DNA from: a virus
Strand: one strand, 5' to 3'
IMG/VR virus record: IMGVR_UViG_3300035670_000563
Location: 1 to 39,436 of that record
Length of the DNA: 39,436 nucleotides
Below are positions 14,562 through 39,393 of the stretch, one piece after another. Each line of letters starts with the position of its first letter. Positions within the stretch are counted from its first letter, which is position 1. The position numbers were made by a program, and so were the translations under genes. The notes below the pieces were generated by a model that was given only the letters and a program-made list of their open reading frames with translations, was not told the origin of the DNA and did no database searches.

Positions 14562-14695
14562 TATCGCGTCTCTACAGGGTTTTTATGTTGTTGTAGAGAC
14601 GCGATTAATCGCGTCTCTACCCCACGCGCCACGGTCTCTTTCTCGGCAAAATCATCTGCCAACTTGCACACAAAATCCACTTCAGGATGTTGCAT
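14561..14695 (-). CDS. Small gene partly made of a palindromic repeat, coupled to the tape measure gene
   Basis: A 44-residue frame starts MQHPEVDFVCKLADDFAEKE and ends PVETR. Its ATG at 14695 has AGAGAG upstream, and its TAA overlaps the tape measure ATG as TAATG. Residues 1-26 look like an ordinary helical protein. The remainder, GVETRLIASLQ...PVETR, is encoded by the three copies of the CGCGTCTCTAC element at 14563-14620. The insertion therefore either extended an old small tail-chaperone gene or replaced its end. Whether it is translated is unproven, but the coupling geometry argues for it. Confidence 0.5.
   Translation of the reverse strand: MQHPEVDFVCKLADDFAEKETVARGVETRLIASLQQHKNPVETR
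14563..14620. repeat. REP-like palindromic repeat before the tape measure gene
   Basis: A perfect 28-bp palindrome lies at 14593-14620, with half-sequence GTAGAGACGCGATT. A third half-copy, ATCGCGTCTCTAC, lies at 14563-14575, in inverted orientation to the first arm, giving an 11-bp-stem hairpin around a 17-base loop. Palindromes of this type are dispersed chromosomal repeats in several bacterial groups, so this one was probably acquired from a host genome. Confidence 0.85.
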
Positions 14696-27664: not shown

Positions 27665-27985
27665 CTAAATCAGACGGGATTGTTTTGAACGGCGGAATTC
27701 TGCGTACAGCTTATCGAAGTGCGCTTCGCTGATACCAAACTCGATACACAGCGCACGCTTGTTGCGCACCTTGTAACGCTTAAACATTTCTGCGTATTTA
27801 CAGGATTGGGGGATTTTGGCGATGTAGGGTTGTGTGCCCTGAAGCAACTCCACAAGCAGTCGCGTGATAACGTGTCCAGCGATTTCTGCTGCATTGGGGA
27901 TGTTTTTTTCTGTCAGGGTGTCCGTCACGAGCCGATACATTTGCTCGTGCAGCTCAGGACTAAATTCATCTGGGATGTAAAGCAT
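27665..27985 (-). CDS. mor: Mor-type transcription activator
   Basis: The 106-residue product starts MLYIPDEFSPELHEQMYRLV. An in-frame TTG at 28042 is part of a promoter -35 box and is rejected as a start. The N-terminal helices (DTLTEKNIPNAAEIAGHVIT) would form the dimer surface and LLQGTQPYIAKIPQS the linker. The C-terminal CKYAEMFKRYKVRNKRALCI followed by EFGISEAHFDKLYAEFRR is a helix-turn-helix. This is the plan of Mor/C activators that turn on middle and late Mu promoters. It stands alone between the lysogeny block and the late region, with its own promoter and an inverted repeat across its start. Family assignment is probable, not certain. Confidence 0.65.
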   Translation of the reverse strand: MLYIPDEFSPELHEQMYRLVTDTLTEKNIPNAAEIAGHVITRLLVELLQGTQPYIAKIPQSCKYAEMFKRYKVRNKRALCIEFGISEAHFDKLYAEFRRSKQSRLI

Positions 27986-28010
27986 GTTCGTTGCCGTTGT
28001 TGAACATGCT
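27981..28010. promoter_or_regulatory. Inverted repeat over the mor start codon (putative operator)
   Basis: AGCATGTTC at 27981-27989 and GAACATGCT at 28002-28010 form a perfect 9-bp inverted repeat with a 12-base spacer. The ATG of the activator gene (27985-27983) lies inside the left arm, and the right arm abuts the -10 box. Binding here, or a hairpin in the mRNA, would control activator synthesis. Confidence 0.75.
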
Positions 28011-28013
28011 GTA

Positions 28014-28042
28014 ATTATTAACGTTTTTTGGCGTGGTGTCAA
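28014..28042 (-). promoter_or_regulatory. Near-consensus sigma70 promoter for the mor-type gene
   Basis: On the minus strand TTGACA (28042-28037) is followed after exactly 17 bases by AATAAT (28019-28014). The -35 is perfect and the -10 matches five of six. Transcription would begin near 28007, giving a short leader to the ATG at 27985. The strength suggests that silence in the lysogen needs active repression or that mor is under other control. Confidence 0.75.
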
Positions 28043-29064: not shown

Positions 29065-29108
29065 AGTCAAACCAGTGCTTGACAGTCAAACAATAGTTTG
29101 ACTATACT
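29065..29108 (+). promoter_or_regulatory. Early promoter with embedded repressor operators
   Basis: TTGACA at 29079-29084 and TATACT at 29103-29108, spaced 18 bases, form a strong plus-strand promoter for the early operon. Between and over them lies the dyad AGTCAAAC-AATA-GTTTGACT (29084-29103). A further AGTCAAAC half-site lies 19 bases upstream at 29065-29072, beside the repressor start. A repressor bound here would block RNA polymerase directly and could also control its own gene. Confidence 0.8.
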
Positions 29109-30782: not shown

Positions 30783-30976
30783 AAAAGAAAAGAATAAACA
30801 TACCGGGCGGCGTACCGGAAGGATATGAGCGGGTGCGCCTGGGCGTACCGATTGAGTCAGGTGACTTGATGTATTGGGCGGATGGCTGGCGCGGTGTGAA
30901 AGAGGATATTGGTTTTAACGTACGCATGGGGATGCTGGTGGTGCGTCGGGAGAAGAACAATGGCGGCAATCAGTGA
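30779..30976 (+). CDS. Small hypothetical early protein
   Basis: The product has 65 residues, starting MKKKRINIPGGVPEGYERVR. It has the look of short phage proteins with 'PEGYERVRLGVPIESGDLMYWADGW' composition, beta-rich and basic. It begins with ATGA overlap to the upstream stop and overlaps the next gene by 17 bases. Role unknown. Confidence 0.7.
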   Translation: MKKKRINIPGGVPEGYERVRLGVPIESGDLMYWADGWRGVKEDIGFNVRMGMLVVRREKNNGGNQ

Positions 30977-31226
30977 TACTTACCAGCGCTTGCTTGAGGT
31001 TTTACAGTACCTCGCTGCGAATCCTAAACCGATGCGCTTAAAAGATGTCGCCGATGCTTTCCAGGTATCGCCGCCCTTGGCGTTGCGCGATTTGGAAAAC
31101 CTAGCCCATGCAGGGTTCGCCGCTAGACGACATGATGGGTTATGGGAGGCGGGAGAAAAAATGAAACAACTCGGTCGTGCTTTGGCGCGGCGTGAATTAA
31201 ATAACCTACTGGAGTCACTGCAATGA
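30960..31226 (+). CDS. Winged-helix (IclR-type HTH) early regulator
   Basis: The product has 88 residues from the ATG at 30960, preceded by GGGAGAAG; the frame extends upstream to 30909 but that part lies inside the preceding gene. The sequence MAAISDTYQRLLEVLQYLAA, MRLKDVADAFQVSPPLALRD and LENLAHAGFAARRHDGLWEA matches the wing-type HTH of IclR-like N-termini. Helix 3 is PPLALRDLENL. There is no effector domain. Such small regulators are frequent in the early operons of transposable phages. Likely DNA-binding; target unknown. Confidence 0.75.
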   Translation: MAAISDTYQRLLEVLQYLAANPKPMRLKDVADAFQVSPPLALRDLENLAHAGFAARRHDGLWEAGEKMKQLGRALARRELNNLLESLQ

Positions 31227-37678: not shown

Positions 37679-37802
37679 CCAGGTAGGGTGCGTTAGCCCG
37701 GTAGGGTGCGTTAGCCCGGTAGGGTGCGTTAGGCGCATCTTTTCGCGCCGTAACGCACCATTGGCACATTGAAACGGTGCGTTACGCTTCGCTAACGCAC
37801 CC
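37675..37802. repeat. REP-like array after gam
   Basis: Three 18-bp tandem units TTAGCCCGGTAGGGTGCG run from 37675 to 37728; the first unit contains the gam stop codon. A hairpin follows from GGTGCGTTAGGCGC and its near-complement at 37746-37759. Another stem, GGTGCGTTA/TAACGCACC, lies at 37776-37801. Together they look like several insertions of one palindromic element widespread in bacterial genomes. The rest to 37861 holds only the ribosome site of the next gene. Confidence 0.8.
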
Positions 37803-38851: not shown

Positions 38852-39293
38852 AAAAATTCAGATTGCAAATATTGAGCGTGCCAAAGCGAAAATTGATGAT
38901 GACGTTTGGCGTACACAAATCTTGCCGCGTTTTGGCGCGGTGGCGGATGCCGATGGGCGCGTGAGTTTGAAAAGCGTACCGGCGAATAGACTAGATGATT
39001 TAATTGCAGAATTGCGCAGCAAGTCGGGGATTAACAGCGATTGGCGTATACCTAAAATAACCAAAATCAAAACGGTGTGGTCACTTTTGCATGAAGCGGG
39101 GATTGTGCGCAACGGGAGCGACCGCGCACTAAGGGCGTGGGCTAAAAAAGTGGCTAAAGTGGATAGGTTGGAATGGGCAACGTCTGCAAAGCTGGATGCG
39201 GTGATTGAGTCGCAGAAGGCGTGGGCAAAGAGAGAAGGCTTCACTCTCAAGTATGATTCGTCTCGCAAAACATTCCTCTACTACCCAGATTAA
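38829..39293 (+). CDS. gemA: GemA/gp16-family regulatory protein
   Basis: The 154-residue product starts MSKISTDKKIQIANIERAKA. The opening helix KIQIANIERAKAKIDDDVWR, then ILPRFGAVADADGR and LDDLIAELRSKSG follow the GemA/gp16 pattern, in which 'IHIAK..lgmdd..YR.mL...G..S...L' comes first. The second half (LHEAGIVRNGSDRALRAWAK, LDAVIESQKAWAKREG) also matches. In Mu the gene modulates host gene expression and DNA topology early in infection. It is the last gene before the right end. The ATG is chosen by this homology. Confidence 0.8.
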   Translation: MSKISTDKKIQIANIERAKAKIDDDVWRTQILPRFGAVADADGRVSLKSVPANRLDDLIAELRSKSGINSDWRIPKITKIKTVWSLLHEAGIVRNGSDRALRAWAKKVAKVDRLEWATSAKLDAVIESQKAWAKREGFTLKYDSSRKTFLYYPD

Positions 39294-39351
39294 TTTCACC
39301 CACCATAATAAATTCATATTATCACGTCTAATTTCGTCTAAACCAATCCAG

Positions 39352-39393
39352 CTTATCGTGCGTTTATCGTTTGTCTTATCGTAAGCCTCGTCA
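39352..39393. other. Putative right prophage end with three transposase-type sites
   Basis: TTATCGT occurs at 39353-39359, 39364-39370 and 39376-39382, the complement of ACGATAA at the left end, spaced 11 and 12 bases. Read inward from the right terminus, TGACGAGGCTT precedes ACGATAAG. This is the geometry of Mu's right end, where 11 bases beginning with TG precede the first ACGAAAA core. The end is therefore placed at 39393, with GGAAA as the candidate duplicated target. Confidence 0.7.

Follow-up and report, generated by a model that had tools for sequence, protein, structure and literature searches.

Background

How might a temperate Mu-like phage keep its late activator silent in the lysogen when the activator gene follows the repressor gene on one strand and lies behind a near-consensus promoter of its own? 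The question is raised by the viral record IMGVR_UViG_3300035670_000563, whose full length of 39,436 nucleotides was analysed and is referred to here as the window. Short repeats at both ends (cacgataaacc within 1-150 on the left, ttatcgt within 39350-39390 on the right) look by eye like transposase sites, and from these end repeats the phage genome in the record is probably complete.

Hairpins that hide a start codon have been described in other phages. According to PMC3014915, long early RNAs of T4 gene e hide the start, late promoters give RNAs that are made without the 5′ strand, and start-hiding hairpins also occur in T4 soc, 49 and I-TevI. In Mu mom the GUG start codon lies in a hairpin stem that is opened by the zinc protein Com, as given in PMC6483171. 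A limited literature search, covering titles and the beginnings of abstracts, returned no published account of a Mu-like Mor activator with a start-codon hairpin.

The mor locus

The features on which the analysis depends are the following.

29058-28666, minus strand: XRE-type repressor gene (HTH_3), on the strand shared with mor
28629-28066, minus strand: zinc-ribbon ORF with a hydrophobic stretch, between the repressor gene and mor
28042-28037, minus strand: -35 hexamer TTGACA of the mor promoter (6/6), read from the sequence
28019-28014, minus strand: -10 hexamer AATAAT (5/6), with a spacer of 17 nt to the -35 hexamer
28010-28002, minus strand: 5′ arm AGCATGTTC of a perfect 9-bp inverted repeat
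28008-28006, minus strand: predicted RNA start, A28007 favoured
28001-27990, minus strand: loop AACAACGGCAAC, 12 nt
27989-27981, minus strand: 3′ arm GAACATGCT, carrying the mor ATG (27985-27983)
27985-27665, minus strand: mor, 106 aa, assigned to the Mor/C family of activators, ATG at 27985

The early operon runs rightward and encodes the transposase, an AAA protein, Gam and GemA, together with an IclR-type HTH protein (30909-31226). The GemA gene stops at 39293 without a mor behind it, whereas in B3 mor directly follows gemA. More generally, mor is the last early gene in Mu and in B3-like phages; here it is found on the strand of the repressor, with the immunity genes on one side and the late genes on the other, has its own -35 and -10 hexamers, and ends about 4.5 kb before the transposase gene. 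This move of the gene out of the early operon was missed by the sequence-only reading. On the minus strand, a search of the stretch that separates the repressor gene from the mor ATG gave no terminator-like site.

Inverted repeats were also seen in two other parts of the window. The gap after the Gam gene (37723-37801) holds three nested inverted repeats with GGTGCGTTA, and two overlapping perfect repeats of GTAGAGACGCGAT, with 14- and 12-bp arms, lie at 14563-14620 beside the start of the 12576-14561 gene.

The identity of mor was approached through profiles and structure. The Pfam Mor family (PF08765) matches the protein with an E value of 9.2e-5 and 22.8 bits, under the curated cut-off of 24.9, and the PHROG late activator phrog_532 matches with an E value of 1.4e-5. 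A profile of 34 Mor-like proteins, the window's included, finds Mu C (1.8e-23) and Mor (1.2e-21) in the PDB, values that describe the profile and not the window protein alone. A structure model (pLDDT 85), built with homologues in its alignment, shows the Mor/C-family layout of dimerisation helices with a helix-turn-helix behind them at the C-terminus; the seven PDB entries that match it best are all structures of Mu Mor or C, with probabilities of 0.77-1.00 and a lowest E value of 0.035, and its best TM to Mu C is 0.66-0.67. The choice of ATG is backed by alignment, the window protein starting with MLYIPDEFSPEL and a homologue (L173) with MLTLPDPYPETL. From sequence and model we call the gene a divergent Mor/C-family activator, whether its action would be Mor-like or C-like. 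Mu Mor belongs to the same family. A strict scan for a Mor-type 5-N6-5 dyad near -43.5 found none at the late operon; four matches on the minus strand and two on the plus strand lie elsewhere.

A promoter that would begin within an inverted repeat

Read downwards from 28042 on the minus strand, the order is TTGACA, 17 nt, AATAAT, TAC and then AGCATGTTC. The sequence-only reading had placed this promoter before a Mor-type gene, and we find it at 28042-28014 on the minus strand, which had been left unstated. Together the two hexamers match the consensus at 11 of 12 positions. Two promoters of this score occur in the whole window, the other being the early promoter (29079), against a mean of 0.72 in Markov sequences. 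Mu Pm, according to PMC4390567, is without a -35 and needs Mor. The mor promoter differs in having a -35, a complete TTGACA, and looks sigma-70-like.

The predicted RNA start is A28007, favoured because it lies 7 nt past the -10 hexamer and is a purine after a pyrimidine. This nucleotide falls within the 5′ arm of the repeat. The 9-bp arms and N12 loop described earlier are indeed present, at 28010-27981 on the minus strand, and the arms can be extended to 12 nt with 11 of 12 paired. The repeat had been said to run from start site to start codon; this is right for the predicted start alone, as the ATG actually lies within the 3′ arm. What had also been missed is that an RNA start inside the 5′ arm makes the hiding of the ATG depend on where the RNA begins. 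A search of the window for known RNA families gave no match.

As a separate observation, the predicted mor RNA would open exactly with AUG, the beginning of a 13-codon frame (28007-27966, minus strand) that passes out of frame over the mor start.

Predicted folding of the leader depends on the RNA 5′ end

The Shine-Dalgarno sequence of mor is among the weakest in the window (32 of 37 genes have a stronger one and two an equal one), and translation of mor should thus be sensitive to folding. In computed folds of RNA entering from upstream, the start codon lies in a helix, as in T4 gene e. The probability that the ATG is unpaired is about 0 in RNA that comes from upstream or starts at 28013-28009, and 0.2-0.5 in RNA that starts at 28007. 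The cost of opening positions -18 to +14 is 9.9-13.2 kcal/mol for 5′ ends from 28300 to 28010; it is 11.9 kcal/mol for a 5′ end at 28009, 7.9 at 28008, 6.6 at 28007 and 6.2 at 28006. Given a predicted start at 28007, this drop of 4-5 kcal/mol falls where the RNA of the promoter should begin. The isolated hairpin has a folding energy of -11.2 kcal/mol (z -4.8), against -5.0 kcal/mol (z -0.4) when it is begun at 28007.

Two points in the folds speak against such a switch. A 6-bp stem is left at the predicted start, so that in the folds the ATG is freed only in part. A start at 28009, two bases upstream, would leave the ATG hidden and abolish the switch.

A proposed read-through lock

We tentatively favour the reading that the repeat is a read-through lock of the T4 gene e type at a moved Mor/C activator gene. 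The gene would be the late activator of the phage, lying behind the repressor gene on their shared strand and served by a sigma-70 promoter of its own. RNA entering from the repressor operon would hold both arms and fold into a 9-bp (imperfect 12-bp) hairpin that hides the mor ATG, and stray read-through in the lysogen would then yield no activator. RNA begun at about A28007 would keep some six of the nine pairs and would be translatable. Read-through from the repressor operon into mor is assumed, and no promoter was identified for the repressor; in the B3-like phage Fc02, PMC9936078 describes a lysogen transcript that starts ahead of the repressor and covers the following gene as well.

The lock would resemble T4 gene e in that the start codon and/or the Shine-Dalgarno lies in a helix of the upstream RNA, in a promoter placed so that its own RNA loses the 5′ part of that helix, and in a gene whose early expression has to be avoided. 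It would differ in serving a late activator of a temperate Mu-like phage, with a sigma-70-looking promoter and an upstream RNA that would come from the immunity operon; moreover the window hairpin is predicted only and is not conserved. In Tn10/IS10, RNA from outside folds over the start signals, and the element's own RNA is made without the outer arm. There the transposase is guarded against host promoters, whereas the lock at mor would guard an activator against the phage's own repressor operon.

The lock would not stop the near-consensus mor promoter from firing in the lysogen. Silence of the promoter itself could come from occlusion by transcription of the repressor operon or from a bound regulator.

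Other explanations of the repeat

A bound regulator is the basis of the strongest alternative, which we regard as a serious one if somewhat unlikely: a phage or host regulator bound to the 30-bp dyad over the promoter start would block the mor promoter in the lysogen. Unlike the hairpin, such an operator accounts for the silencing of the promoter itself. The perfect 9-bp dyad sits over the predicted start, a place for repressor action, and its half-sites are 21 bp apart from centre to centre, or two helical turns, a spacing that would suit a bound protein; the IclR-type HTH protein of the early operon is a candidate regulator. However, the 12-bp middle of the dyad is without symmetry, and the window holds no second copy of the dyad, the other exact copies of AGCATGTTC (20341, 27301) being single arms. 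With at most one mismatch, AGCATGTTC occurs nine times in the window against 10.7 expected. Related copies beside the repressor gene or the early promoter, to be expected for the operator of an autoregulated repressor, were not found. The arms are also unlike the repressor's AGTCAAAC repeats at 29065-29102, which bears out the earlier statement that the repeat is unrelated to the operators of the early promoter. Binding of the XRE repressor at the repeat was rejected on this ground, and LexA-like boxes were rejected by eye.

Slightly less likely, though still a real alternative, is the ordinary explanation, in which the moved mor gene simply has a sigma-70 promoter and the repeat has no function. 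The window holds 14 perfect inverted repeats with arms of at least 9 and loops of 3-20, where a mean of 3.8 is expected, so that the repeat by itself is unremarkable in this genome. An ATG inside an arm of at least 9 bp was found at 12 of 3534 gene starts in phage and prophage loci, a control set of ORF starts and not of curated genes (ORFs of at least 150 aa with an ATG start, in loci of at least 9 kb). The start-codon repeat is thus rare but not unique, and what is surprising is the ATG inside the arm and not the bare repeat. Simulated leaders carry the ATG in the 3′ arm in just 14 of 20,000 cases, and the coincidence of an ATG in the 3′ arm (at least 8 bp) with a promoter (at least 9/12) starting in the 5′ arm was met at 0 of the 3534 control starts, which speaks against a repeat without function. 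These rarity figures are overstated because the repeat was picked after reading the whole 39-kb window, and the repeat is not conserved, as the ordinary explanation would have it.

Finally, it is very improbable that an upstream-encoded zinc-ribbon protein opens the hairpin and turns mor translation on, as Com does at mom: a zinc-ribbon ORF does lie directly upstream of mor, but it matches Zn_ribbon_4 only weakly, its hydrophobic stretch beyond the ribbon suits a membrane protein, and the Com family (PF10122) has no match in the window record.

The observation made in the sequence-only reading is confirmed, and its interpretation is partly supported. A bound protein and an mRNA hairpin remain the two options for silencing that it had named, although its claim that silencing must come from one of them was too strong.

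Mor genes in related records

The window Mor protein as query found no relatives in viral contigs, genome contigs or phage records, and a single transposase protein found nothing in viral contigs; wide sets of relatives were taken instead from TerL and a transposase alignment. Of 80 transposase-related loci, 50 were given to the Pfam Mor search and 47 had Mor, many of them in closely related records that do not count as 47 independent cases. In 46 of the 47, mor and the transposase share a strand, with mor 3.3-6.6 kb further downstream. The one exception, L287 (the same record as L342), has mor on the opposite strand and upstream of the transposase gene, 4.9 kb away counting the transposase length and about 2.9 kb from its near end, a layout much as in the window. 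By eye, this mor comes after a repressor-like gene and a small ORF.

Three further loci, L343-L345, encode Mor proteins 83-85% identical to that of L342. All four carry TTTACA-16-CATAAT directly before mor, with diverged DNA further upstream, so that a good -35 at a mor promoter is less unusual than had been claimed. In L343 mor also lies behind a repressor-like gene, as in L342 and the window, and in L344 and L345 it lies behind gemA-like ORFs (both by eye). These four relatives thus share the conserved promoter directly upstream of mor but are without the 9-bp start-codon repeat. A promoter belonging to mor itself and a move of the gene are each seen in other records; the start-codon hairpin is not.

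Conservation of the repeat, which the sequence-only reading had proposed to look for, was not found, and this is the first of the two outcomes that it had named as refuting its view. Among 117 mor ORFs, arms of at least 9 occur at one start and arms of at least 7 at three. One further viral contig (L082) carries the exact repeat, at an unrelated place; there the repeat lies inside a reading frame in a record without Mor, and this contig was rejected as a relative. Since the hairpin is not conserved, comparative proof of the lock is lacking. At L342/L287, which is without a start-codon arm, the opening cost also drops, though less clearly, being 13-16 kcal/mol before and about 10 kcal/mol in promoter-made RNA with the ATG still paired, a result that neither supports nor refutes the lock model well.

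Upstream of mor in L343-L345, folds of longer RNAs let the -35-region strand (ACATCGCC/ACATTGCC) pair with the GGTGATGT Shine-Dalgarno region, and this modelled pairing may represent a less strict version of the lock. A start hairpin as a general feature of mor genes was rejected, the 7-bp arms of L235 and the 6-bp arms of L305 being broken in the close relatives L271, L278 and L276. The nearest Mor relatives, L347-L350, lie by eye beside gemA-like genes or in the early operon, and no arms were reported for L347, L348-L350 being covered by reading alone. An ORF behind gemA in L232 (transposase 73% identical) looked Mor-like by eye and was not counted, as its record has no Pfam Mor; a local HMM against the ORFs of L232 gave only an E value of 0.28, to an ORF not matched to the one behind gemA.

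Repeats at other gene starts were also seen. In two distant loci, L180 (about 11008) and L234 (about 524), a repeat with 10-bp arms, CATAATGTTC-N11/12-GAACATTATG, lies over the start codon of a Mu gpI-like protease/scaffold gene (by eye), with AGGAG in the loop or arm; from its sequence it may be another start-codon hairpin. In Alteromonadaceae phage B23 (L113, 427-446), the palindrome AATGTTCCAGTCTGGAACATT lies in the gap before the ner gene.

Implications

A wider account would be that a transposable phage shifted its late activator out of the early operon to a place crossed by the phage's own immunity transcript, and that the shift was made safe by a start-codon hairpin with the promoter start in its 5′ arm, such that the promoter from which an RNA comes decides whether it is translated. 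Taken as a whole, this account is doubtful. If the operator reading were true instead, a regulator outside the AGTCAAAC system would control late expression. If the lock is real, the logic of T4 gene e, in which one gene gives two RNAs of which one is translatable, would operate in the lysis-lysogeny decision of a Mu-like phage. A gene order that looks risky, with a lytic activator behind the repressor, could then be safe, and a rule for reading genomes would follow: to seek a promoter start in the 5′ arm of a start-codon hairpin.
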